From Prevotella sp. (GTDB lineage: Bacteria > Bacteroidota > Bacteroidia > Bacteroidales > Bacteroidaceae): a DNA stretch of 36,276 nucleotides. A program made the translations under genes and the position numbers. The stretch is from the NCBI GenBank assembly GCA_017428055.1, contig JAFRRN010000082.1, positions 1 through 36,276 on the forward strand. Reading direction: 5' to 3'. Of this stretch, positions 2,957-17,400 are shown piece by piece. Within the stretch, counting starts at the first letter, position 1, and every line of letters begins with the position of its first letter. Below the pieces are notes generated by a model that saw only the letters and a list, made by a program, of their open reading frames with translations, made no database searches and had not been told where the DNA came from.

Positions 2957-3005
2957 GGTATCTCCTCATCACAACTTGTGAGATACAGACAGCGAAAAAG
3001 TACAA

Positions 3006-3218
3006 GATTACAAAATTACACATTACATTTAGGTACTTCATGAGTGGGGGGAATATGCGGAATCCTATTTTTATATATATATAATATTATAATAATATAT
3101 AAATATAATATATATATACATCTAATTCCCCTCATGATAACAACGTGTCCTGCCAAGTCAGACCCCAATCATGCTCATACCACCTTAATGTAATCATGTA
3201 ATTTGTAATTTTGTAATC
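3006..3218. repeat. Long imperfect inverted repeat with an AT core
   Basis: The left arm begins GATTACAAAATTACA (3006-3020); the right arm (3187-3218) contains its inverse complement and extends the match into a second GATTACA-like unit. Inner arms CATGAG..GGGGAAT (3039-3054) and ATTCCCCTCATG (3125-3136) also pair. The core (about 3071-3118) is almost pure A/T and partly palindromic. The design repeats that of the element at 2065-2280 with unrelated bases. It occupies most of the gene-free stretch 2957-3420; the rest holds the promoter of the following operon. Confidence 0.8.
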
Positions 3219-3362
3219 ATGGCGATGTGAAAAAAAATCATTTGCATATTAGTTGGTGATTAAATTTGCTAATGGTTTCTCTCCACTTTTATAGTTAATC
3301 CCATGCCAGTCATTAGAGCATTTTTGGCAATTGGGGATTAATAATGCTGAAATTACAAATGC

Positions 3363-3397
3363 TTTTGCGGTGATTTCAGTTTTTTCATGTATTTTTG
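3363..3397 (+). promoter_or_regulatory. Promoter of the NurA/HerA/radical SAM operon
   Basis: TTTTG (3363-3367) and TATTTTTG (3390-3397) match the Bacteroidetes -33/-7 boxes, 22 bases apart, slightly long. The predicted transcript would start about 15-20 bases before the ATG at 3421. This argues against the TTG at 3331, which would lie upstream of the promoter. Confidence 0.6.
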
Positions 3398-3420: not shown

Positions 3421-4590
3421 ATGGGTAAGATACTCGACTATATAGCAGACGAAACGCAGGGTAAACGATTCGCATCGTTCAAGTACTGCTACGATGACAC
3501 GTCAGGGCCGATAGAGTACGACCCTGACGAAGAGCATTATATCAACATGAAGGAGTATGCCGAAAGCGTTCACGACCCGAAGATGCGTGATATGACTGCA
3601 AGAGCCGAACTGTGCCGCCAAGGGCCACCCCTCTTCAAATACTTCCTTGATGGTTCGCGCAGAGTGTACAAGGTAGATGACATTCAGTACGACAAGAAAG
3701 TTTTCCCCGTCATTAGCGGACAGGTTTCTGTGGCTTGCTGCGGTAGGGAAATGAATGATGACTATACCTTCCGTGATTTTCATCATGTGGAAGAAGAATC
3801 ATATCCTGTTGTTTGTCTGCCAGTGGTTGCCAATGGCGAGGGTATCGATAATGGTGTCTTCTTCAACAACCTAAAGAACAAACTGAATGAACAGCCCCTT
3901 TTGAAGAAGTCGGGTATTGAGATTGGCAAGGTGCTTTGGTATCTGACACGCCTTGAAGGACGTGAGACACTGGAGAATAAAGGCGTTGCAAAAATACAGG
4001 ACGAAATGGTGGATTGTGAGAAGCGTATTGTTGCTCACCTAATGAGCAAGCATCTGCTGACCCACGAAAGTTACTTGATAAAGGACGGATCTGTACAATA
4101 CAAGCCCATGAAATCGGGTGACTACAAGGAACTGGCTCGTATCCGTAATAACTACCGCCATGTGGTGGGTGTGTCGAAGCGATTCAATCCCAACCTGATG
4201 AAAGACAACAAGGGGCAGAGCAGCGCAGCCGCCATTGCCAGCCTTCCTCTCTTCCATCGCACACCAGCCTTCCTGTGGAGTCCTGGAGCAGAATGGGGCA
4301 ACGTAAACTTCGCCATCTGGTATGTGCGCATCCGTGAACGGAGATATACCTCAACCCCTTATTCGGGTGTGCTGAAAATAGAGAAGATGCTGATGACGGG
4401 AAGCGAAAACGATAATGGCCTGATGACAGACGAAATAGATACGATTACTGCCAACATCATTAACGAACGCAATCCTGTTTGCTACGGCAACGATGCTCGC
4501 TGGGCAAATCATCTTTACCCTGTATATATGGCTGAAAGCTACTGCAAGAGCCGATTTAGAAGTGACATTCAATTCATCAATCTGTTTTGA
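3421..4590 (+). CDS. NurA-like nuclease
   Basis: This 389-residue protein carries features of NurA, the Mn-dependent DNA nuclease that works with the HerA translocase in resecting DNA ends. The visible marks are a first DGS motif at D77-G78-S79 (FLDGSRR), a second at D222-G223-S224 (LIKDGSVQY), a late WYVRIRE segment, and a C-terminal HLYPVYMAESYCKSRFRSD block. That block resembles the PxPLxxAHxxARI ending of NurA, with Glu at 372 where His is usual. The next gene, three bases on, encodes a HerA-like ATPase, which supports the call. I chose the ATG at 3421 because a promoter lies directly before it; a TTG at 3331 would add 30 residues unlike the rest. The exact catalytic set remains unproven from reading alone. 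Confidence 0.72.
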   Translation: MGKILDYIADETQGKRFASFKYCYDDTSGPIEYDPDEEHYINMKEYAESVHDPKMRDMTARAELCRQGPPLFKYFLDGSRRVYKVDDIQYDKKVFPVISGQVSVACCGREMNDDYTFRDFHHVEEESYPVVCLPVVANGEGIDNGVFFNNLKNKLNEQPLLKKSGIEIGKVLWYLTRLEGRETLENKGVAKIQDEMVDCEKRIVAHLMSKHLLTHESYLIKDGSVQYKPMKSGDYKELARIRNNYRHVVGVSKRFNPNLMKDNKGQSSAAAIASLPLFHRTPAFLWSPGAEWGNVNFAIWYVRIRERRYTSTPYSGVLKIEKMLMTGSENDNGLMTDEIDTITANIINERNPVCYGNDARWANHLYPVYMAESYCKSRFRSDIQFINLF

Positions 4591-4593
4591 GAT

Positions 4594-6264
4594 ATGGAGA
4601 AAATAGGACGAATAATAGCAACCGAGAAGCAACCTTCAACTATTGAGGAGTTCACCTTTTGGACACGGAAGGACTTGAAGTTGAAACCTTTCGATGTAGT
4701 GGTGGTTGACCATATAAAGGATGCCAATGGGGAGGATTCAAAGACCTTTGGTGTCGTAGAGGAGATTTCCCACATGACGGACTCACCGAGTGCTTTGGCA
4801 GGATACATTTCCAGCGACTTCGGCGATGTGGATGCCAAGACCTACACGGAGCGCATCGGCATGAACTACGTGAAGTGCAAAGTGGTAGGCAACGACAAAG
4901 GTATCTACATTCCCGTGCAAGAGGGTCGGCAAGTGCATTTGGCTGATGAGGAACAGATTATGGAGGCACTGGGACTGAAAGATGTCAAGAACCCACTCCC
5001 GGCAGGATATATCGAAATGTACGATGGTGAGAACCAGAAGACACTCCCCGTTTATTTCAACTCCCACTTCCTGATAGGGCCGGAAGGAGCGCACCTGAAT
5101 ATATCGGGTATATCGGGCTTGGCATCAAAGACCTCATACGCCATGTTCCTGATGAAAGCCATACAGGACTATGCTATGAAAGGCAACGAGTCAGTGGCAT
5201 TTATCATGATGAATGTGAAAGGAACTGACCTACTGAAAATTGACCAGAAGAATGAGCGGAAGAAAGAACTCGACCTCATCAAGCCTGTTTACGACTTACT
5301 GGAAATGGAAATGAAACCCTTCGAACAAGTGAAGTATTTCTATCCATACGCAAAAGAATACACGAATTACACATACGAAAAAGAGAGTGTGCTGAAAGAG
5401 CGACTGGCAACCAAGACAGCAGCGCAGTACAAATATCTTTTTGAAACCGATGAGGACAAAGAATGCCTTGACCTTCTGTTTGCCAATGTGGATGACCCGA
5501 ATGAAACAATCGAGAGTATCGTGAACTTCATCATGGCTAATGGCGGCGACTTCAAGGGTGTCGAAACATGGGAAGATTTCCTGCAAGTCGCTCACAGCTA
5601 TACACAGTCAGACAAGAAAAGTTCGACAAAAGAGATCTCTGTCATGAGCTGGCGCAAGTTCTATCGACTCTTCAATAAGAGCTACCAGAAATGCAAACAG
5701 ATGTTCACCAACAAATTGGGTGACGACGGTGTGCGACTTCGCGACGAGATAGCCATTATCAACAAGAACGACATAATGGTGATTGATGTTGCGAAACTTG
5801 ATGAAGAGTCACAAGGTTTTGTCTTTGGCGACGTGATGCGAGCCGTTTACAATCTGAAACTTGGAGCATCAAAACGACCTGATGAAGAGATTCCAGACCG
5901 CATCATTATCTTCATAGATGAGTTGAACAAATACGCTTCAAGCGATGTACCCAAGTCGTCACCGATTCTCCATCAGTTGCTCGACATCACAGAGCGTGGT
6001 CGCTCACTTGGCATCGTCCTCTTTGGTGCAGAGCAGTTTGTAAGCGACATACACCGCCGCGTAAAGGGCAACTGTGCTACACAGGCCTTTGGACGCACCA
6101 ATGCCATAGAGATTACCCGCGAGGATTTCCGCTTCGTCCCCAGCGTCTATAAGACGATGCTAACCAGAATGAAGCAGGGCGAATACATCATTCAGAATCC
6201 TGCGTTCCGCTCCATGCTCCACATCAACTTCCCACTACCCATTTACAAGTATTATAACGACTAA
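4594..6264 (+). CDS. HerA/FtsK-like hexameric ATPase
   Basis: This 556-residue P-loop ATPase resembles HerA, a hexameric DNA translocase that feeds DNA to NurA. Residues 1-150 form a beta-rich N-terminal part like the HAS-barrel region. The Walker A region is GISGLASKTS with K179; the residue before the lysine is Ser in place of the usual Gly. A long insertion (about 220-390) contains helices rich in Lys and Glu. Walker B is RIIIFIDELNKYA with D442 and E443. ITERGRSLGIVLFGAEQF follows, with an arginine likely to act in trans, and then a C-terminal VKGNCATQAFGR sensor-like segment. It starts three bases after the NurA-like gene and is followed eight bases later by the GHKL gene. Function in defence or repair is inferred from the neighbours. 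Confidence 0.85.
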   Translation: MEKIGRIIATEKQPSTIEEFTFWTRKDLKLKPFDVVVVDHIKDANGEDSKTFGVVEEISHMTDSPSALAGYISSDFGDVDAKTYTERIGMNYVKCKVVGNDKGIYIPVQEGRQVHLADEEQIMEALGLKDVKNPLPAGYIEMYDGENQKTLPVYFNSHFLIGPEGAHLNISGISGLASKTSYAMFLMKAIQDYAMKGNESVAFIMMNVKGTDLLKIDQKNERKKELDLIKPVYDLLEMEMKPFEQVKYFYPYAKEYTNYTYEKESVLKERLATKTAAQYKYLFETDEDKECLDLLFANVDDPNETIESIVNFIMANGGDFKGVETWEDFLQVAHSYTQSDKKSSTKEISVMSWRKFYRLFNKSYQKCKQMFTNKLGDDGVRLRDEIAIINKNDIMVIDVAKLDEESQGFVFGDVMRAVYNLKLGASKRPDEEIPDRIIIFIDELNKYASSDVPKSSPILHQLLDITERGRSLGIVLFGAEQFVSDIHRRVKGNCATQAFGRTNAIEITREDFRFVPSVYKTMLTRMKQGEYIIQNPAFRSMLHINFPLPIYKYYND

Positions 6265-6272
6265 TCAGAATT

Positions 6273-7892
6273 ATGGCTAAAATAGGCAAATATGTTATTG
6301 ATTCCCTCACGCGAAGCATGTATGAGGACAGCCGCTGCATCTATCGCGAATATATTCAGAATGCGGCTGACCAGATAGACCTTGCTCGCGAACAGCATTT
6401 AGAAGAAAACGATTACTACGAAGTTCATGTAAGAATATTCCGTAACCAAAGACGTATCGAAATAGAAGATACTGCAACGGGTGTGAGTGCAGATAATCGC
6501 GACACGCTGAAAGATGTGGCTACATCGCAGAAGAAACGAGGACAACACAAGGGATTCAGAGGTATAGGCCGACTTGGTGGTTTGGGTTATTGCTCCACAC
6601 TCACCTTCGAGACATCCTATAAGGGCGAAGAGGTGAAAACCTTGATGCATTGGGATGCGGCAAAGATGAACCGTATTGTTGACGATGAACTTGACGAGAG
6701 TGAGGCAGGAAACGTCATCGACGATTGCACCTCGTTTGAAGAACAGCCAGAAGTTGCCGATAAGCATTACTTCAAGGTGATAATGGAAAATGTCACAGAT
6801 GATCGTTTGCTGGATGTGAATAATATCCGCAAATATCTTTCTATGGTTGCTCCCGTGGATTATCCAACCCAGTTTGGTATATTCTCTTCTCAGATAAAGA
6901 GATACATCCAAAATAATGGCATTGTTCTGGATGTATATAACATTTATGTGGGTGACGAATTTGGTGAGGAACAAATATACAAAGGCTACACAACAAAAAT
7001 TGAAGATGCCAGGAATGGCGATTATGACATAAAAGACATCAAGATTTTTGACAGGAAAAACTCTGAAGGCGAAATCATTTATTGGGGATGGTATTCTATA
7101 TCTGAATTACGCGGTCAGATTCCTGCCAACAATGTTGCATACGGAATAAGACTTCGCTGTAAGAATATTCAGGTAGGTGATGAGCGTACTACCCGTAACT
7201 TTTTCGTAGCTGAGGGCGATAAACGCTTTGCACAATATTTCTTTGGTGAGCTTCATGTGGAAACACCTCTCCTTATGCCAGATGCACGTCGTGACTATCT
7301 CCGCGAATGTGAATACAGAAGTACGTTTGAGGGAATGGTAAGGAGCGACTTTACAACACTGAAAGACCTGTGTAACGAAGCTTCCAACATACGTGGCATA
7401 ATCAAGAACATCACAAAGGCGGAAGAAGGCCAGAAAACAATAGAGAAGAAACGCGAAACCAGTTCATTCTTGTCTCAAAAGGAAATAGAAGATGACGATA
7501 CCAAGTATGAGCGTTTCAAGAAGAACAAGGAAAAAGCCCAGCAGCAACTTGAAAGGAAGAAACAGGAAACTGAGCAGAATGGTTCACCCTTGGGCTTTAT
7601 CTATGGAACTTTACCCACACCCGAACCGACTCTTCCGTCAACCCCATCCATTCCTATTAGTACTACCGATGGTGATACACAATATCCGACATTTGTTGCC
7701 AACAGCCCAACAGAACCTACTCCAGATGAGCAGCAACCTAAATTGCGAACGGATAACGCACTCTATAAAAAGTTCGGAGTTAAGGAAAAGAATGTCATCA
7801 ATGCCGTTTATAATGCCATATACAACGCTATCGCCGACGAGGATATGCGTGAAGGGCTTATCAAAAAGATAGAGAAGGAACTAACGAAATGA
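6273..7892 (+). CDS. Hsp90-like GHKL ATPase
   Basis: This 539-residue protein has an N-terminal GHKL/Hsp90-type nucleotide-binding domain. The N-box is REYIQNAADQ with E26, N30 and D33. The G1 box is IEDTATG with D66 and G70. The G2 glycine lid is KGFRGIGRLGGLG at about 93-105. A middle domain runs to about 385 and includes LLMPDARRDYLRE, comparable with the middle-domain loop that contacts ATP in Hsp90 relatives. Residues about 395-440 are a charged coiled coil, 445-495 a Pro/Thr-rich linker, and 500-539 a short helical C-terminal domain. Such ATPases act as ATP-driven clamps or chaperones (Hsp90, MutL, gyrase B, Morc). In this operon it may load or gate the HerA-NurA machine. The stop codon overlaps the next start (ATGA). 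Confidence 0.85.
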   Translation: MAKIGKYVIDSLTRSMYEDSRCIYREYIQNAADQIDLAREQHLEENDYYEVHVRIFRNQRRIEIEDTATGVSADNRDTLKDVATSQKKRGQHKGFRGIGRLGGLGYCSTLTFETSYKGEEVKTLMHWDAAKMNRIVDDELDESEAGNVIDDCTSFEEQPEVADKHYFKVIMENVTDDRLLDVNNIRKYLSMVAPVDYPTQFGIFSSQIKRYIQNNGIVLDVYNIYVGDEFGEEQIYKGYTTKIEDARNGDYDIKDIKIFDRKNSEGEIIYWGWYSISELRGQIPANNVAYGIRLRCKNIQVGDERTTRNFFVAEGDKRFAQYFFGELHVETPLLMPDARRDYLRECEYRSTFEGMVRSDFTTLKDLCNEASNIRGIIKNITKAEEGQKTIEKKRETSSFLSQKEIEDDDTKYERFKKNKEKAQQQLERKKQETEQNGSPLGFIYGTLPTPEPTLPSTPSIPISTTDGDTQYPTFVANSPTEPTPDEQQPKLRTDNALYKKFGVKEKNVINAVYNAIYNAIADEDMREGLIKKIEKELTK

Positions 7893-9832
7893 ATCGGAGG
7901 GTTTTACTTTTAGAGCCTAACTACAAGAACAAGTTCCCTCCTATCGGCTTGATGAAACTGGCTACCTACTTTAGATTGCGGGGCGACGATGTGGTTTTCT
8001 ACAAGGGAGACCTGAAAGAGTTTGTTATCCGTCAGATAACTGAGGAATGCGTTGCACAGCTGGCAAAGGTTGACGAAACTATTGATTGGAAATTGCGTTT
8101 TAATCGCATTGCCAAATACATACGTTATCGACGCAAGTCAGATTTAGAGAGTATTGGCATAGACGATTCGGAAGATGCAATCTTTATTTACCCTTGGATT
8201 GAGCATTTCAAGAAATTCTATCATAGTGGAGAATACAAGAAACACCCCCGTTGGGATTGGGTGGGCGTAACCACGTTGTTCACCTTTTATTGGGACATCA
8301 CCATTGAAACTATTGAGTTTGCCAAGACGATGGTGAAAGACAAGAGGAATTTGATGGTGGGTGGTGTGCTGGCATCTATTCAACCGAAAGAGATAGAGGA
8401 AGCTACTGGTATTAAACCCCATCAAGGAACATTGCACACCCCAGCCGTTGACGGAAAAGGCGGTGACATTGATGATGACAATCCCTATATTATTGACGAG
8501 CTGCCGCTTGACTACTCCATTCTTGACGAAATAGACTACGAATACCCTGATGGTGGATCTTTCTACAGTTATACCACGCGCGGTTGTTTCCGCACATGCC
8601 CATTTTGTGCCGTGTGGAGGATTGAACCCGAATACCAGCAATACATCCCCTTGCGAGAGCGCATAGAAAGAACTCGAAGGCTCTATGGTGACCAGCAGAA
8701 TCTGCTTTTGATGGACAACAACGTGCTACACTCTGAGAAACTGAAGGAAATCATAGAGGATATACAGTCATGTGGTTTTACGAATGGAGCGAGATACGTT
8801 GAACCCAACCAGTACTTCATAGCCGTTCGCAATCTGCGTTTAAGAATAAACGATAGGGCATATATTCGAAAATGCTATAAACTGCTCCAAGAAATCAATA
8901 ATTATAAGGGGCTGAACGAGAAGTTAAGAACTGAAATTCTTGCACTTCGAGAGAAGCATAATCTGTTGCATCTGGAAACATGCAAGCGTGAAGTGTTGGT
9001 AGACACCTATAAGGACTTTGCCCCTTATTTCGAGGCCAAGTATAAAAGGCTGAAGGGCAGGTTGAGGTATGTTGATTTCAATCAGGGTGTTGATGCAAGA
9101 CTATTTAACGAAGAAATTGTTAGCTTGTTAGAGCAGATTCCTGTCAGGCCACTACGAATAGCCTTTGACGACATGAAGACGGAACCCAAATACAAGAAAG
9201 CCATACGTTTAAGCGAAAAGCATGGTATGCGTGATTTCTCCAACTATCTGCTTTATAACTTCAAAGACAAACCTGTAGACCTATACCATCGACTGAAAAT
9301 CAATGTGGACATGTGCGAGAAGATGAATGTCAGCATCTACTCGTTCCCCATGAAATATCACCCTATACGTGGAGAGCATAGCCACGACCGAGATTATATA
9401 GGTAAACATTGGAACAGGAAGTACATCAGAGCCGTCCAAGCCATCCTGAATGCCACAAAGGGCAAGATTGGGCGCGGCGTATCGTTCTTTGAAAAGGCAT
9501 TCGGACGCAATGAGGAGGAATACATGGAATTGCTTTTGATGCCAGAAACATTTTTGGTTTTCCGTTTCTTCTTTGAGGATTTGGGCTATACAAATGAATG
9601 GCGTGAGTCAATGGCAGCATTGACCGATGAGGAACGAGAAGAACTATTACCCATTATCTACATGAATGAGTTTAATAACATTGATGGATTGACGGACAAT
9701 CCCAAATACCGTCATATTCTTACCTACTATAAAGACTACCGCAAGGACATTGCTAACCACTCGTCGGAACTATACAAGTTGTTACAGGAGTTTGAGAAAC
9801 GTCAAATAGAAAAACTGCAGAAGAAATTATGA
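7889..9832 (+). CDS. B12-type radical SAM enzyme
   Basis: This 647-residue protein is a radical SAM enzyme of the cobalamin-binding type. The N-terminus VLLLEPNYKNKFPPIGLMKLATYF, here broken only by family-usual spacing, is the Rossmann-like B12-binding start with the typical PPIGLMKLA, but I see no DxHxxG motif, so cobalamin would be bound base-on or not at all. The 4Fe-4S motif is CX3CX2C at C233, C237 and C240 (RGCFRTCPFCAVW). Further barrel strands are NLLLMDNNVL, YVDFNQGVDARL and PLRIAFDDM. A helical insertion at about 310-390 interrupts the barrel. The C-terminal 150 residues are helical and charged. The substrate is unknown. Translation is coupled to both neighbours through 4-base ATGA overlaps, so it belongs to the same system as the ATPases and the nuclease. 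Confidence 0.87.
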   Translation: MNRRVLLLEPNYKNKFPPIGLMKLATYFRLRGDDVVFYKGDLKEFVIRQITEECVAQLAKVDETIDWKLRFNRIAKYIRYRRKSDLESIGIDDSEDAIFIYPWIEHFKKFYHSGEYKKHPRWDWVGVTTLFTFYWDITIETIEFAKTMVKDKRNLMVGGVLASIQPKEIEEATGIKPHQGTLHTPAVDGKGGDIDDDNPYIIDELPLDYSILDEIDYEYPDGGSFYSYTTRGCFRTCPFCAVWRIEPEYQQYIPLRERIERTRRLYGDQQNLLLMDNNVLHSEKLKEIIEDIQSCGFTNGARYVEPNQYFIAVRNLRLRINDRAYIRKCYKLLQEINNYKGLNEKLRTEILALREKHNLLHLETCKREVLVDTYKDFAPYFEAKYKRLKGRLRYVDFNQGVDARLFNEEIVSLLEQIPVRPLRIAFDDMKTEPKYKKAIRLSEKHGMRDFSNYLLYNFKDKPVDLYHRLKINVDMCEKMNVSIYSFPMKYHPIRGEHSHDRDYIGKHWNRKYIRAVQAILNATKGKIGRGVSFFEKAFGRNEEEYMELLLMPETFLVFRFFFEDLGYTNEWRESMAALTDEEREELLPIIYMNEFNNIDGLTDNPKYRHILTYYKDYRKDIANHSSELYKLLQEFEKRQIEKLQKKL

Positions 9833-10872
9833 TAACAATAAGCGACACAAAAAGTACCTTACCAACCATTCAAAAGGACAATTACAAAGCTTTCTTCCAT
9901 CAAGAACAAATGAAGTTCCTGAGCGGAACTACGTGGCAGAACACCGTCGGGGCATTCTGGAAAGAGATGCGTCTGAACGTATCACCCAATGATGTGGAGG
10001 TCCTTGTGTCGTTTCTCAGGAACAAACGCGATGCTATTTTGCAAGCATACAGACAAGAAGAGTTCTTCGTGTTTTGGAATCGCTGCTTCGATAGTGCTAT
10101 AAAACTGTTTGATGAGGAAAAATTCATTCATTTGCTGTGCCTTGCCTATAGCAACCATATCGAGCGTAGTGACCTCGATGCCTTTTTTGCCTGGTATTGT
10201 TTGACGGGCTTTATCGATGAATTGTTGAGTCGCATTCTTGAACACCAGAGTTCACTCGCAGGAGCTACCATCAACTTCTTCTACAATGATGGTGGCGAGA
10301 TTCATTTTGGGACACCTTCGGGTAAGAAGGCAGAAAATACTACTGCTGAAGAAGATCCTTTGAGAAACATCATTTTCAGCGAAAGGCTATTTGACTCCAA
10401 TGCCCGACTTGCCAAGCTCCGTGACACCATAGCCTCAGCAATCGATATGGGCGATGCTACTATCATGTATGGAAAACCTCAAGCAATGCGTATTGACCCA
10501 ACTGTTAAGAGCGAATGGTACTATATCGTTAAGTCCATTGAAGAAGCAAAAGTTGCACATGACAAACTCTCTGTGACTGGGTTTATTGAGCAGATGATGG
10601 AATGGTATCCTATGCTATTTCCTGATGGCACAAAGGAAGAGTGGGAAAAGTTCAAGAGACGGTTATCGAAGTCTATCTCCGACGAAAAGAGCCTATGGCG
10701 ACAAGGAAAGATGAAGGAAGTTGTTTCGCTTCGTGAAATGTGGGCTAAGGGTATCAGCAAAAAAATCGGTAGTGCAAAAGCAAACCGTATCTATGAGATT
10801 GCCTACAAAGGGCTTTTCCGCAACTTGGAAAACTTGAAGGGCGAAATTGAAAGGGAGAAAACAGAACAATAA
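9829..10872 (+). CDS. Uncharacterised last gene of the operon
   Basis: I do not recognise this 347-residue protein. It has no signal peptide and no membrane segment. The composition is helical and charged, with aromatic clusters such as FFVFWNRCFD (about 83-92) and DAFFAWYCLTGFIDEL (about 118-133). A Gly/Ser/Glu-rich linker at about 160-185 separates an N-terminal helical half from a C-terminal half. The latter holds EWYYIVKSIEEAKVAHDKLS and a basic stretch WEKFKRRLSKSISDEKSLWRQ, which could contact nucleic acid or act as a partner-binding surface. Its start overlaps the stop of the radical SAM gene by four bases, so it is translationally coupled and likely needed in fixed ratio with that enzyme. 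A terminator follows. Confidence 0.85.
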   Translation: MITISDTKSTLPTIQKDNYKAFFHQEQMKFLSGTTWQNTVGAFWKEMRLNVSPNDVEVLVSFLRNKRDAILQAYRQEEFFVFWNRCFDSAIKLFDEEKFIHLLCLAYSNHIERSDLDAFFAWYCLTGFIDELLSRILEHQSSLAGATINFFYNDGGEIHFGTPSGKKAENTTAEEDPLRNIIFSERLFDSNARLAKLRDTIASAIDMGDATIMYGKPQAMRIDPTVKSEWYYIVKSIEEAKVAHDKLSVTGFIEQMMEWYPMLFPDGTKEEWEKFKRRLSKSISDEKSLWRQGKMKEVVSLREMWAKGISKKIGSAKANRIYEIAYKGLFRNLENLKGEIEREKTEQ

Positions 10873-10896: not shown

Positions 10897-10932
10897 GAAG
10901 GGATTCCGAAAGGAGTCTCTTCTCTTATTTTC
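10897..10932 (+). terminator. Terminator of the five-gene operon
   Basis: An 11-bp stem (10897-10907 with 10912-10922), two of whose pairs are G-U, closes a GAAA tetraloop and is followed by TCTTATTTTC. It lies 24 bases after the last stop of the operon, defining its 3' end. Confidence 0.75.
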
Positions 10933-11535: not shown

Positions 11536-13845
11536 ATGGTAAATCATGTATTTATTGACGGAAGCGGACACAAGGTTGCCCGCTCCGTTAAGAACAGGGA
11601 AGAGTACTTTGCGCTGAGAAACAGTGTACAGAACCGACAGAGCCTGATGCTGGCACGGAATGGCGACGAGAAGGCGAAGGCAAGGCTGGTGCAGTTCAAC
11701 TACAACGACCTGTTGCCCGATGGCATTCTCAAGGGTTGCTGCCACCCTGCCAGTACGTTTGCGGGCGACATCGACTGTGGCTCGCAGAAGGAGTGTGCCG
11801 AGATTGCCCAACGTTTTCTGGACTTGAAGGAGGAGATTGGGTTGGTGGAACTATCCCGTTCGGCTCGTTATGGCTTGCATTACATCTGTCTGCGCAAGAA
11901 GGGTACGACGATTCTTGAAAACCAAGTGCGCATAGCCATGTTGACGAAGACGGAGATGGACACTTCCACCCACGACCTCCAGCGGGTGATGTTCACCGTG
12001 ACGGCAGACGGCAGGGAGTTGCTCTTCCTTGACGACAGGATTTTCGACGAGCCTCTGACCGTGGAGGAAAGCGCAAGGGAATATGAGTTGCTGAAAGAGA
12101 GGGAAAAAAGTGGACTGGAAAACGTACCAAAAGGAGCGAAGAAGACAAATAAGCACTACGTGCCGAAGCAGGAGGGAGAAATTTGGAAGGAGGAAGTACT
12201 TCCTACACCTGACCTTCAGAACTGCGCAAAGCGCACTACCTCAACCGTCACCCTTCCTACTTCCACCTTCAAAGGCATTTCATACGCTGATATTATTGCC
12301 GAATGGTGGCGACGCAACGGAGGGGAGCCGTCGGAAGGTGAGCGCAACGTGAAGCTGCATCAATTAGCGGTGAACCTTCGGGCTATCTGTGACAACAGGA
12401 AGGACTTGCTTTTGGCTATCATGCCGACATGCGGATTGGGTGAAACGGAATTGAAATCAATCATCGACTCGGCCTGTAAGGAGAACCCGAAGGGAATATC
12501 CAAGATGATGAAAGCCATCGTCGAGGAACTGGAAGACGGAAAGGATTTTGACGGGGAAACGGAAGATGACGGGGATAGCGACAACACGAACACTTTGCCT
12601 ATTAGCGTGAAAAGGAATTTGCCCGTCGGCTTGAAAGAATCGTTGATAGGCGTTCCCAAGAACATGCAAATGCCCGTATTGTGCGCTGTGATGCCGATAG
12701 CTGCCACATACGCCGACTTGGTGGATGTCAGGTATTGCGACGGGATGGAACAAAAACTTGGCTTGATGTCGATTATCCTTGGCGACCAGGCAAGCGGGAA
12801 GAGCGTTTGCAAGAATGCGGTGGACATCTGGAAACGGCAGTTGGACGAGGAGGATGCCTTGGCCCGTAAACGGGAGGAAGAGTGGAAGGAGAGGAAGAAG
12901 TCGCGTAAGTCAAACGAGAAAGCACCAGAAGACCCTCATGTGCTAATCAGGGTGCTGCCTGTCACGGTTTCCTGTTCCACGTTGTTGAAGCGATTCAAGA
13001 ATTCCTGTGACCATACGCTATATTCCTTTGGCGAGGAGCTTGATACTTTGAGGAAAACAAACGGGGCTGGCTCGTGGAGTTCCAAGTATGACATCTACCG
13101 CCTCTCGTTCGATAGGGGCGAATGGGGACAGGACTACAATTCTGACCAAGCGGAAAGCGGCGTTGTGAGAGTGGCGTATAACTGGACGATGCTCGGCACG
13201 TATGGGGCGATGCGGAAGTGTTTCAAGTCAGACAATATCGAGAACGGCCTTTCCTCTCGTATTCTTGTTGCCGAGATGCCTGACAGCAGCTTTGCCAAAA
13301 TGCCAAAGTACGGCAAGCGGTCTTTGGAGGATGAAGCTAAGATACAGGAAGCCGTGAATGCTCTTCGTAAGGCAAACGGACTGATAGATACTCCACGTTT
13401 GCGAAAATCAATAGAGCAATGGGTGGAAGAGAAACGCGTGGAAGCCGCCAAGGACATTGACCGCGTGAAGGACACCTACCGCAAACGGGCTGCGGTGATT
13501 GGTTTCCGTTGTGGGGTGATATTCCATCTGTTGACCGGCAAGGCGAAAGAGACGCAAGCGTGTATCGACTTTGCGCTCATGATGGCTGATTATTGCCTTG
13601 CCCAACAAATCAAGACATTTGGTGAGACATTGAAAAGGCAGTATATAGATTCCAACAACGAAAACAATTGTTGTAAACTAAATGCCTCTGCTTATGATCA
13701 ATTACCATCTGTTTTTTCATCCGACGATTTAAGGGCCATAAAGGGTGAATCGTGTAAAGTCAATTCTTTAAGGATGATTATATCACGATGGGTTCGTGAT
13801 GGTTGGATTAAAAAGATAAGAAAAAACCAATGGCAAAAAGTGTAA
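11536..13845 (+). CDS. BT4734/VirE-like plus DUF3987 protein (primase-helicase-like)
   Basis: This 769-residue protein matches the layout of Bacteroidales proteins with a BT4734/VirE-type N-terminal domain followed by a DUF3987 ATPase-like domain. Residues about 50-185 carry the N-terminal domain (DLLPDGILKGCCHPASTFAG, SARYGLHYICLRKKG). Residues about 250-350 are a helical PriCT/VirE-like segment (DIIAEWWRRNGG, IMPTCGLGETELKSIIDSAC). The P-loop is GDQASGKS at 416-423 with K422. The DUF3987 part follows, including LYSFGEELDTL with its acidic pair and YRLSFDRGEWGQDY. A short C-terminal segment (about 715-769) resembles a winged helix. Related proteins are regarded as primase/helicase-like factors of integrated elements. 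It is cotranscribed with the small gene upstream and runs to within 59 bases of the DUF5675 gene. Confidence 0.82.
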   Translation: MVNHVFIDGSGHKVARSVKNREEYFALRNSVQNRQSLMLARNGDEKAKARLVQFNYNDLLPDGILKGCCHPASTFAGDIDCGSQKECAEIAQRFLDLKEEIGLVELSRSARYGLHYICLRKKGTTILENQVRIAMLTKTEMDTSTHDLQRVMFTVTADGRELLFLDDRIFDEPLTVEESAREYELLKEREKSGLENVPKGAKKTNKHYVPKQEGEIWKEEVLPTPDLQNCAKRTTSTVTLPTSTFKGISYADIIAEWWRRNGGEPSEGERNVKLHQLAVNLRAICDNRKDLLLAIMPTCGLGETELKSIIDSACKENPKGISKMMKAIVEELEDGKDFDGETEDDGDSDNTNTLPISVKRNLPVGLKESLIGVPKNMQMPVLCAVMPIAATYADLVDVRYCDGMEQKLGLMSIILGDQASGKSVCKNAVDIWKRQLDEEDALARKREEEWKERKKSRKSNEKAPEDPHVLIRVLPVTVSCSTLLKRFKNSCDHTLYSFGEELDTLRKTNGAGSWSSKYDIYRLSFDRGEWGQDYNSDQAESGVVRVAYNWTMLGTYGAMRKCFKSDNIENGLSSRILVAEMPDSSFAKMPKYGKRSLEDEAKIQEAVNALRKANGLIDTPRLRKSIEQWVEEKRVEAAKDIDRVKDTYRKRAAVIGFRCGVIFHLLTGKAKETQACIDFALMMADYCLAQQIKTFGETLKRQYIDSNNENNCCKLNASAYDQLPSVFSSDDLRAIKGESCKVNSLRMIISRWVRDGWIKKIRKNQWQKV

Positions 13846-13848
13846 TTT

Positions 13849-13890
13849 TGCAACTTTGCAACTTTGTAACTTTGCAACTTTAGTACCTTC
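13849..13890. repeat. TGCAACTT octamer array, inverse copy of the one at 2240-2280
   Basis: Four copies of TGCAACTT (the third is TGTAACTT) begin just after the VirE/DUF3987 stop and are followed by TAGTACCTTC. The 42-base block is the inverse complement of 2240-2280, including the ten flanking bases, with one missing base and one mismatch. The two copies face each other across 11.6 kb. Confidence 0.9.
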
Positions 13891-13904
13891 ACATAAATAG
13901 AATT

Positions 13905-14351
13905 ATGGAACTTGTTTTAAAAAGAATCGCCAAGAAGAAGGGTTATACGATAGGCAAGCTTTATGTCAAGCAACCTGTTATAGATGAATATTTGAGTGGC
14001 GAGAAGTCTATTTACATCTGTGATACGCTTGAACCTCAATGGCGAGACTATGCCAGGGGTGCACGTAAGATAAAGGGGAAAAGTGCCATTCCAGAAGGGC
14101 GTTATGCCGTGGTAATTACTCATTCGTCAAAATTCAAGGAATGGTTGCCCTTGTTATTAGGTATCCTCAACTTTTCGGATGTTCGCATACATGCTGGCAA
14201 TACGGTGGAAGACACGCAAGGATGTATCTTGGTTGGCGAGAACAAGGAAGTAGGAAAGGTTTTCAACTCGCGCAAATACGTGAAAATAGTGAAACAGAAA
14301 ATCGTAGAAGCCAAGGACAAAGGCGAAGGTGTGTGGATAGAAATACGATGA
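13905..14351 (+). CDS. DUF5675 family protein
   Basis: This 148-residue protein matches DUF5675, a small Bacteroidetes family near mobile and phage-like modules. Family marks are SIYICDTLEPQWRDY, KGKSAIPEGRYAVVIT, RIHAGNTVEDTQGCILVG and a basic C-terminal helix. The order of conserved residues (D40, E43, H-A-G at about 100-102, D-T-x-G-C at about 107-111) resembles an L,D-transpeptidase-like or peptidoglycan-active fold, but the function is not established and I do not assign one. It follows the VirE/DUF3987 gene after the octamer array and ends in a clear terminator, so it closes that transcription unit. In related loci an amidase often occupies this place, which hints at a cell-wall role. 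Confidence 0.85.
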   Translation: MELVLKRIAKKKGYTIGKLYVKQPVIDEYLSGEKSIYICDTLEPQWRDYARGARKIKGKSAIPEGRYAVVITHSSKFKEWLPLLLGILNFSDVRIHAGNTVEDTQGCILVGENKEVGKVFNSRKYVKIVKQKIVEAKDKGEGVWIEIR

Positions 14352-14384
14352 TTATTGAATGTTTTTTCATTGGTATATAGAATT

Positions 14385-14420
14385 GAAATGAGCTTGACGA
14401 TTTGCCAAGCTCATTTCTTT
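14385..14420 (+). terminator. Terminator closing the island
   Basis: A perfect 12-bp stem GAAATGAGCTTG / CAAGCTCATTTC (14385-14396 with 14406-14417) with a 9-base loop is followed by TTTG. It lies between two convergent genes and may serve both. Confidence 0.85.
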
Positions 14421-14463
14421 GTGTTGATGGATGATTCCATTCGTGTTATTTCATCAGATGATA

Positions 14464-17400
14464 TTACTTCACGATTATCTTCTTGACGATGGTCTTTCCA
14501 TCTGAAGTGGTAGATTTCACGATGTTCAAGCCCTTAGTCAAGCGGTTGATTCGACGACCGTCGGCAGTATAGATGGATTGACTTACAATGCTACCAGAAG
14601 CGATGTTGCTGATGCCAGTAGTATTCTGGTGTATACTATTCGTGCCGAGGTATTCCAATTGCCAGTTGGAGAATGGCACCCAGTCGTTGGCCTTTCCAGT
14701 TTTGTTGCAGGCACCGATGCGTAAGGTGCCAGATGCGTCTACGTAGCAAATGAGTTCATTGGTGTACATGCCGAAGTCGCAACGGTTGGCAAGAGCCTGG
14801 CGGTTGTTGGGATAATAATAGGTCACAGGAACATCGGGGTCGGTTATGTTGTCCTCGAATGTTGCCCAGCCGCCTTCGTCGTTAAGCCCGCTCTGGAGGG
14901 TAAAGGCATCCTCTTCATTGTCAGGGATAAAGATCCAACGGACGAAGTCGATGGTGTCTCCGTTGGCATAGATCTTGGCTCGTGGGTCGAAAGGCACCAC
15001 GTTGTTCTTCTCATCATCGGTGAGAAGGTCAAGTTTTGCTATGGATTCGGCATAGCCATACTTCCAAGTCTTTCGGTCGGTGTCGATACCCTCTTGGCGG
15101 TAGAGTCCCTGTACCCTCACGCGGAAGGTGCCTTGGGGCAGCCCAGTGATGTCTTGGTAGATGTCGAAGGCGGTGTTCCATCCCTCTGCAAAGCCGATCT
15201 GCGTTCCCAAAGTGGTGGTTTCCTGTTCCACGCTTACCTTTCCGGCAAATTCGGGAGCCTCAGTCCATCCCTTCAGTCCCTTGGTGTAAGTTGGGTTGAC
15301 GATGACGGAGGTGTAGTTGATAGGTGTGTCATCCGATGCGTCCCTGCCTTCCGGTATTCTCACGAGGGCAATCATCACGTTCACTTCCGCAACCTTGTCG
15401 GCTACCTCCTCGTCAGTATAGGCACCATTGTTGATGCCATCCTCCACCTCGGCATAGAGAGCCTGGGCGGCGGCGAGCGTCTCTGCCTTCGTCAGTGAGC
15501 CGTAAGCGTCGATGGTGGATATCAACTCGTTGTTGGCATCGACGAGCATTTGGTAGGTGTCGATGCTTGCATTGGCGGTTTCCATCACGCCCTTGAGTGC
15601 CTCGTAAGCCTTCAATATGGCGTTGCCATCCTCTGCTCCCTTGCCATTGTCGATGGCTTCTTGAAGGGCTGCCTTTATCTGTGCAGACATGGGCTTCTCC
15701 AATAGAGCCTCGGCATCGTTGATGATGTTTGAGAAGATGGGCTGTAGCGTCTCATAGTCTTTGCCCAAGTAAGTCAACTTGAAGTCGTCCCACAACGGCC
15801 ATGCCCAGCCTCCGATGTTGTCGCCTTTCACGCCGAGGGTCACAGGGTTGCCATCAGACATGAACTCTAAACTCACGTTCCAGTCGTCGGAATAGTTGAA
15901 CATCGCATTGGCGGCGGTGCAGTTGTCGGGCGAATAGACGGTTCCGCCGTCGGAGGCGGTGATGGTTCCCCATGCACCTACACCCATTTCGTTCTTCTCA
16001 TCCTCGGTGTACACCCTCTTCATGAGGTTGTTGAACAGAGCCGAAGCCGTCCCCGCGAAGATTGAGACATGCACCTCGTTAGCTCCCGAGTTCTCTCCAT
16101 TGGCTGCCACCCAAGCGTTATAGGCGTTCTGTGGGTCGTTGGCGCAGCGATAGTAAGCCCTTGTCTCCAATCGGTAGGCACCCTTTGGCAGCTTGACAGA
16201 TTGTGAGATATCGAGCGATCCCGTCTCTGACGAGCCGTGCCATTGTTCTATCACACCCGTGTTGCCAGCGTTGTTGGCGAATCCGTTGTCCGACTTGGTT
16301 ACCGTCCATCCGTTGAAGTCGGCATTACCCTGGGCGTTGGTAAACGAAGCATTGGTGATGAATTCCGATACGTCAGAGTCAGGTGTAAGTTTGTTTTCAC
16401 GGGCAGCTCTTGCCGTTGCCTCCAATTGTTCGAGTTTGGCGAGTACTTCCTCGGTTGTCATGGTTGGGTCTTGGAGCAGTGCTTCAATCTCTTGTGTTAA
16501 TTCAACGAGGTCATCATCTCCGTCATATTCTGATTGCCAGACGGCATCCAAGAAATATTCGTTCCTCGTCTTGAGGGTCTCGTAAGCTGTCATGTTGTCG
16601 CGCAAGGCTTGCAAAGCTTGCATGGTCTTGGCATAGACTTCAAGAGCCTCTTCCTTGGAGCTGGCGGCATTTGCCTCCTCGTTGAGGGCAATGACGGCAT
16701 CGTAATAGGTTTGATTGAAGAGCTTTCCGTCAAACTCCTCGCCCATGTTCTCAGTGAGGGCTTGTGTCATATACTTATAAGAGTCGAGACTGGCACCGTA
16801 GTAGATTAGCTCGGCGTTGTCGATGCCCACCCACGAGTTGTTGAATCCCGTCTGTACGAATCCCATTTCGAGTTTGCCGTCTTCGATGTTCATCATGGTG
16901 GAATAAGCCTTGAACGGGCCTTGTGTCAAGGCAAACTTCTGGTCGTTGAAGTAAACGTACTGGTTGAAGTTGGTCTCGTTGTCGGGGGCAAACGTCTGAA
17001 CGAAAGCGGAGAGTGACACCTTATATACGCCATTGGGCAGTCCGTTCATCGTTTGGTACATCTTGGTTTCCAAGTTGCCGTTGCGCCAGTTCTCCCAGAA
17101 AGGATAAGAGAAGGCACCGTCGGCGGGGTCGCCAATCCACAAAGCCTCGCTGTCGTTGTTGGCAGCGGTCTTGTTGCCCTTGTTCTGGCAGTTGGAGTCG
17201 AGCGACCATCCACGCTCTGACCCGCTCCCCTCGTCGAAGGTAGGATTGATGAGGTATGAGCCGGCGAGGTTGGTGGGATTGTCGGGCGATGCGGCATTGC
17301 TGATAGCCTCCTTCAATGCGTTGATGGCGGCATTGATTTCCTCTATGGTTGCCGATGGGTTGTCAAACACCGCCTTGGCGGCAGAGAGGTCGATGCCCTT

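Follow-up and report, generated by a model that had tools for sequence, protein, structure and literature searches.

A 36,276-nucleotide contig of Prevotella sp. (hereafter the window, one whole contig of a 4.2-Mb genome) carries an operon in which genes for a NurA-like nuclease, a HerA-like translocase, an Hsp90-like GHKL ATPase and a radical-SAM (rSAM) enzyme follow one another. We found that these four genes almost certainly act as one functional unit, that the quartet is sporadic and spread over several phyla, and that it is likely an anti-invader defence. The reading that we favour, with a probability of about 45%, is that the quartet is a horizontally spreading, restriction-modification (R-M)-like system in which GHKL and rSAM take the place of the methyltransferase. 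HerA-NurA would form the restriction arm, in which a ring-shaped translocase delivers duplex DNA to the nuclease NurA. The rSAM enzyme, worked or gated by the Hsp90-like ATPase, would stand in for the DNA methyltransferases of neighbouring NurA-HerA lineages and would label the DNA of the host with a methyl group or some other carbon modification, placed on a base or on a sugar. Only unmarked incoming DNA would then be degraded.

We scanned a collection of species genomes with an rSAM profile and found relatives on 412 stretches (stretches, not species), from which the best 80 loci were kept. More than 5 kb of upstream sequence was available at 69 of the 80 loci, and all four genes were full length (set minimum lengths, all within eight open reading frames (ORFs) upstream of the rSAM gene) at 65 of these 69. 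Phocaeicola barnesiae DSM 18169 (L077) and Dysgonomonas macrotermitis DSM 27370 (L109) are among the carriers of four full-length genes. The other 15 loci comprised 11 with less than 5 kb upstream, two with a split GHKL gene (L053, L117) and two without NurA-HerA (L111, L112). The genes were exactly consecutive on one strand at 62 of the 73 loci with three ORFs upstream, with median gaps of 1, −0.5 and −4 bases. Pairwise distances of the four proteins (66 rows) correlated at 0.78–0.97, the maximum in 999 permutations being 0.18. A phylum sample of 395 genomes, drawn separately, overlapping the 80 loci by at least one contig and including the genome of the window, held this NurA in five genomes (the window's own and four more), each time with HerA, GHKL and rSAM close by in order; a sixth genome with a strong rSAM match had a 220-aa piece only. 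Two of the four further NurA genomes carried an inserted pair of 461-aa and 273–295-aa proteins with a second GHKL, and one carried a second GHKL and a protein that we call X. At L097, L115, L120, L256 and L257, an AAA-type ATPase (AAA_15 in L120) and a 270–295-aa protein stood inside the quartet, usually with a second GHKL. An earlier note, made from the sequence alone, had proposed a five-gene system with the rSAM and fifth genes as conserved neighbours of NurA-HerA. This holds for the rSAM gene and for genes 1 to 4 as a unit (65/69 loci; 5/5 NurA genomes) but not for gene 5: because a homologue occupies the slot at only 9 of 75 loci, we rejected gene 5 as a core part, treated it as accessory and took the conserved unit to be four genes.

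Judging by the titles of the records, members of Clostridia, Victivallaceae, Aminicenantes and other groups have the set, mostly in metagenome bins that may be mis-binned. It could in principle be a DNA-repair operon, with HerA-NurA resecting ends as it does together with Mre11-Rad50, and with the rSAM enzyme reversing a base lesion. Distant HerA relatives on three plasmids do lie with SbcD and SbcC/SMC-family genes, but the set is very sporadic (a strong rSAM match in 2 of 60 genomes sampled from the genus, many of which are incomplete; this NurA in 5 of 395) and yet occurs in several phyla and on viral contigs, so we consider repair improbable. We also give little credence to a mobile-element function, in which the set would protect or process the DNA of plasmids or prophages rather than defend the host. 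A Marinitoga virus and viral contigs carry relatives, and three DUF3987, three relaxase and two integrase matches were found among 145 neighbour proteins (drawn from 588 of up to 900 aa within 6 kb). However, the same neighbours matched housekeeping families (adenylate kinase, urocanase, LpxC), and stand-alone rSAM genes on viral contigs L140–L200 had no NurA or HerA match within five genes.

Gene 2 (556 aa; positions 4594–6264, on the + strand like the whole operon) is, by sequence, a HerA of the HerA/FtsK class with Walker A and B motifs. Its profile matched Deinococcus radiodurans HerA (7f6d) with an E-value of 4e-55, and the Walker residues K179, T180, D442 and E443 were identical in 70 of 70 rows; in this and the following counts the window is included, and the residues were chosen because they were invariant in smaller alignments. 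Gene 1 (389 aa; 3421–4590) had no Pfam match and a weak PDB profile match to the 7f6d NurA chain (0.41). A structural model of gene 1 (mean pLDDT 66) matched 7f6d NurA (1.8e-8), TM1739 (2.0e-6) and Sulfolobus NurA (3.2e-5), the only fold matches below 0.001. D77, E200, D222 and H364, which we take to be the NurA active site, were identical in 68 of 68 rows. The predicted fold therefore supports a NurA-like nuclease, and both names that the earlier note had given were borne out, NurA through the fold search of the model and not through Pfam.

Gene 3 (539 aa; 6273–7892) matched HATPase_c_3 in Pfam (5.7e-7), and its profile matched HtpG (1.6e-17) and other Hsp90s; Hsp90/HtpG chains led its PDB matches (best 60 of 162). 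The earlier note had named Morc-like proteins as an example of GHKL ATPases in defence; the leading matches of gene 3 were to Hsp90/HtpG. The GHKL residues E26, N30, D66 and R340 were identical in 75 of 75 rows. On these sequence grounds it is a GHKL ATPase with an ATP site and an Hsp90-like N domain, as had been proposed. Gene 4 (647 aa; 7889–9832) matched the Pfam families B12-binding and Radical_SAM, both below cut-off, and phrog_9298, annotated as a 'radical SAM domain protein' (2.4e-37). The rSAM profile gave weak PDB matches only (best 0.0082). The model of gene 4 (mean pLDDT 80) matched the TsrM and MgmA folds below 0.001 and AprD4 at 0.0035, with low TM-scores of 0.24–0.49. The three cysteines of its CxxxCxxC motif (C233, C237, C240) were kept in 81 of 81 rows save for one X. 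With this motif kept and B12-class folds coming first, gene 4 looks like a cobalamin-class rSAM enzyme, which agrees with the B12 type first suggested.

Viperins are rSAM enzymes known in defence, and a viperin-like or otherwise nucleotide-directed defence would have the rSAM enzyme make a toxic or chain-ending nucleotide. A viperin identity of gene 4 was not supported: the fold search gave B12-class enzymes instead, no PADLOC model matched the rSAM protein, and there was no match to a viperin-named Pfam or NCBIfam family. The tight coupling to a DNA translocase-nuclease and the frequent position of stand-alone phage copies near packaging genes also argue against a nucleotide-directed mechanism, which we regard as very improbable.

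We then asked which genes accompany HerA. Two phylum samples were analysed, around a Clostridia genome (G747) and a Victivallaceae genome (G746); each includes its centre genome, which was chosen because it holds the system. In the G747 phylum, the HerA profile matched 11 of 299 genomes, nine of them strongly (2.5e-73 or better); the two matches at about 1e-5 were set aside. Four of the nine strong loci were quartets and five were operons with a type IIG-like protein of 1083–1111 residues. One of these five was broken (L295), one had no adjoining N4/N6 methyltransferase (L291), and the other three had such an enzyme beside HerA. The families N6_Mtase, Eco57I and MmeI_Mtase passed cut-offs in all four type IIG-like proteins scanned, and N6_N4_Mtase did so in all five methyltransferases scanned. 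In the G746 phylum, 3 of 145 genomes matched: one had a quartet, one (L296) the gene order rSAM-NurA-HerA-GHKL and one (L297) an operon of the methyltransferase kind. The viral contig L264 carries the methyltransferase kind of operon, and a viral scan with its HerA recovered only L264 itself. L292, L293, L294, L297 and L264, in which NurA-HerA is joined by a type IIG-like N6-methyltransferase protein and an N4/N6 methyltransferase beside HerA, are a possible R-M type. HerA was found in 6 of 72,556 plasmid records; among four inspected, the annotation of three shows SbcD and SbcC or SMC-family genes nearby, and the fourth (L265) carries no annotation.

A HerA tree of 38 rows separated these operons. 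Of the 69 quartet HerA rows available among the 80 loci, it included 20 (14 random, 6 chosen); L265 was left out, and L291 was labelled as methyltransferase owing to its type IIG-like protein. With the three HerA-SbcCD plasmid rows as outgroup, 28 GHKL-rSAM rows fell on one side of a branch (support 99/98) and six methyltransferase rows were grouped (99/96), all six with the type IIG-like protein and five also with the N4/N6 DNA methyltransferase. Partner labels changed three times, the minimum possible, and none of 200 shuffles was as low. Long branches lead to the rows from Marinitoga and from the SbcCD plasmids, and support was 84/60 for the node uniting both groups to the exclusion of Marinitoga. 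In the methyltransferase operons, these enzymes occupy the position of GHKL-rSAM. The most parsimonious interpretation is that GHKL-rSAM is a DNA-modifying pair and that unmarked DNA is degraded by NurA-HerA. This exchange of GHKL-rSAM with DNA methyltransferases beside NurA-HerA is new here and yields a specific, testable mechanism.

Partners also change on the rSAM side. An rSAM tree (54 rows) united 38 of the 39 GHKL-linked rows in one group (100/99), apart from 14 stand-alone phage rows. The partner labels changed 13 times (minimum 6; shuffled mean 29.6), on a labelling in which 'DGQHR' was also given to some rows that lack a DGQHR match and lie beside ParB and helicase genes, and in which L154 counts as alone though a GHKL match lies nearby. 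Within the GHKL-linked group, partners switch between NurA-HerA, ParB plus a DEAD helicase (with or without a DndB-family protein) and protein X. A DGQHR protein is encoded next to rSAM and GHKL on three plasmids of Alphaproteobacteria (in L012 with a DndB-family match, 7.7e-8); ParB-like and DEAD-helicase genes lie near on two of these plasmids and on eight viral contigs. Protein X accompanies GHKL and rSAM in L111 and L112, which have no NurA-HerA, and in L113 and L118, which have it. L112, an archaeal contig (Altiarchaeales), carries a second, short rSAM gene followed by a ParB-like and then an Mrr-like gene (13817–17045), the Mrr match being placed at 16152–17045 on the strength of its contig number, its position and the length of the frame. 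Marinitoga camini virus 1 has a short rSAM gene opposite HerA-NurA.

On the viral contig L131 (2996–13478), DrmA-like and DrmB-like genes are followed directly by a NERD-like gene, rSAM and GHKL. The DrmB-like name rests on an MZB match (5.1e-9) and annotated relatives; DrmA and NERD, like our PD-(D/E)XK assignments, are names given by eye. The set resembles DISARM, and no methyltransferase was noticed within the 14.7 kb of L131. Two plasmid regions (of 56 and 85 records) hold relatives, one with DrmE, DUF1998 and phospholipase-D, the other with phospholipase-D and a DNA methyltransferase. Many of the stand-alone phage rSAM genes on viral contigs L140–L158 lie between a ParB-like gene and terminase. 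ParB_N and terminase were among the best 25 of 52 families near the phage rSAM genes and not among the best 25 of 62 families far from them (144 near proteins sampled from 222, 141 far proteins from 450). The rSAM genes of viral contigs L133 and L137 have common neighbours, one of which we take, by eye, to be of Cas7 type. Some radical-SAM enzymes act on the bases of phage DNA. The word 'radical' does not occur in two phage-DNA papers that were searched (PMC6449724, PMC12783734).

Taken together, the sequence comparisons show families, co-inheritance, conserved active-site residues and partner exchange, and they describe NurA-HerA and GHKL-rSAM as two modules that combine with exchangeable partners. 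We tentatively extend this picture, at somewhat less than even odds, to a portable GHKL-rSAM writer that would be plugged into NurA-HerA, into ParB plus helicase and into a DISARM-like DrmA-DrmB set. The bare rSAM of phages would be a countermeasure, and the mark would be made by radical chemistry, probably at an unreactive carbon.

Several observations weigh against the R-M-like reading. We infer DNA as the rSAM substrate from neighbouring operons, by analogy, and what the methyltransferase operons do is likewise presumed. The exchange is not one for one: the methyltransferase operons contain in addition a type IIG-like protein (about 1,100 residues), and in L291 no N4/N6 methyltransferase adjoins HerA-NurA. 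If GHKL is needed for self-protection, the split GHKL genes of L053 and L117, where NurA, HerA and rSAM are open, should harm the cell, unless they are assembly errors. At L037, an insert interrupts HerA and the remaining genes are open; such an interruption, which a loss of restriction would allow, says little because the loci were found through rSAM. One GHKL-linked rSAM (L040) lies outside the main group on a very long branch, and Marinitoga virus 1, with rSAM and HerA-NurA, gave no GHKL match within the 18.6 of 53.4 kb examined. DNA methyltransferases were no commoner near the phage rSAM genes than far from them (among the best 25 families each, three N6_N4, one Dam and one C5 match in 144 near proteins and four N6_N4 matches in 141 far proteins). 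Finally, enrichment in defence islands is weak: the 145 neighbour proteins matched 134 PADLOC models versus 61 for a control set (145 proteins from 239 on 20 stretches of 15 kb, with those above 900 aa dropped), and these are counts of models, not proteins. The defence role for which the earlier note had cited a mobile-type island as support is likely as an anti-invader role, with weak support from the island itself.

A serious rival, though in our view a less probable one, is a defence without a mark on host DNA. The rSAM enzyme and the Hsp90-like ATPase would sense the invader, or would modify its nucleic acid or a protein such as NurA or HerA, and would thereby switch the nuclease on. The evidence for one unit and for its spread fits this mechanism equally well, the nearest rSAM folds include the protein methylase MgmA as well as TsrM, and the two loci with split GHKL keep NurA-HerA. 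HerA is also paired with Sir2 and with DUF4297 in defence, according to a 2026 study (PMC12977600). However, related NurA-HerA operons carry DNA methyltransferases, and rSAM occurs alone on viral contigs. Moreover, GHKL-rSAM stands beside several unrelated nuclease or helicase sets, a pattern more in keeping with a common modification module than with an activator of a single nuclease. Under the R-M-like reading, the role of GHKL would be to work or gate the rSAM enzyme.

The quartet matched no catalogued system in the PADLOC 2023 models. Among the five window proteins, gene 2 alone had matches, to mad8 (3.4e-10) and to HerA (0.012). No description of a NurA-HerA-GHKL-rSAM set was found among the open-licence literature matches listed; the earlier note likewise knew of none. 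Archaeal and Deinococcus HerA-NurA share with the window the HerA family, the NurA fold and the adjacency of the two genes; the window set differs in being joined to GHKL and rSAM, in its sporadic occurrence and in having no Mre11-Rad50 among its four core genes. Sir2-HerA and HerA-DUF4297 are not known to have a modification enzyme. They resemble the window set in coupling a HerA-class ATPase to an effector, according to PMC12977600, which also suggests an antiviral role for Thermococcus HerA-NurA; the window set differs in its NurA partner, its two further enzymes and its match to the PADLOC HerA model at only 0.012. The NurA-HerA-methyltransferase operons (L264, L292–L294, L297) share the NurA-HerA core and belong to a neighbouring HerA group, but have the type IIG-like protein and the N4/N6 methyltransferase where the window has GHKL-rSAM. 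L131 has DISARM-like genes, whereas the window's five proteins have no DrmA, DrmB or DrmC match in PADLOC, and only the rSAM-GHKL pair is common to the two. Beyond mad8, the five proteins matched no other MADS model. DndFGH and the 'HerA/FtsK capture' systems likewise join a HerA/FtsK-class motor to a nuclease (PMC10853773), but no DndF, DndG or DndH match was found among the five proteins, and the word NurA is absent from the main text of that paper. Compared with R-M systems, the window has a predicted nuclease, and its modification enzyme would be one by analogy with the related operons only.

The fifth gene (347 aa; 9829–10872) would be an exchangeable accessory, perhaps concerned with targeting. 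It had no NCBIfam or PADLOC match and a Pfam match of 0.15 at best. Within the first 150 bases downstream, 41 of 80 loci had an ORF of 100 aa or more on the same strand: nine were gene 5 homologues, 14 belonged to a second family and 18 were mixed. The slot was vacant at 34 loci, which had at least 500 bases and no such ORF, and five loci had no room. The second, larger family (L065, L067, L072, L075, L083 and others) has, as we judge by eye, RNA-polymerase alpha-CTD-like repeats. The RNA-polymerase alpha-CTD Pfam family was matched by 2 of the 145 neighbour proteins (members not named).

The layout of the operon is compact. The coordinates confirm five same-strand ORFs, separated from gene 1 to gene 5 by a 3-base gap, an 8-base gap and two ATGA overlaps. 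A Bacteroidota-type promoter, TTTG-N22-TATTTTTG, lies at 3364–3397 (+ strand) and ends 23 bases 5′ of the first ATG. It is the sole match between 2900 and 11600 to the Bacteroides promoter consensus, and this consensus has seven matches across the window versus 0.77 expected. A likely intrinsic terminator, an 11-pair stem followed by a T-rich tail, lies at 10897–10922 (+ strand). Because terminator-like sites between 2900 and 11600 were not above expectation (6 versus 7.5), it rests on position and stem length. The single upstream promoter that had been read from the sequence was thus located, and so was a likely downstream terminator. Between the operon and an upstream ORF (2390–2956), named ORF6N by eye, the stretch 3003–3221 contains an inverted repeat of 26 bases (92%) together with palindromes rich in AT. 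In 12 of 12 relatives examined by way of the left flank (pckA-like by eye), no other window protein matched the adjoining 9–18 kb. The comparison shows a variable region, yet no clean empty site.

If the R-M-like reading is true, dozens of bacterial species at least would protect their DNA with a mark made by radical chemistry, a new way to tell self from foreign. A role would also be suggested for the phage family phrog_9298, known only as 'radical SAM domain protein'. Even if the rSAM enzyme acts otherwise, a four-enzyme system of Bacteroidota and other phyla, undescribed in the catalogue and literature searched, merits testing, and the exchange of partners makes the question of marking directly testable.

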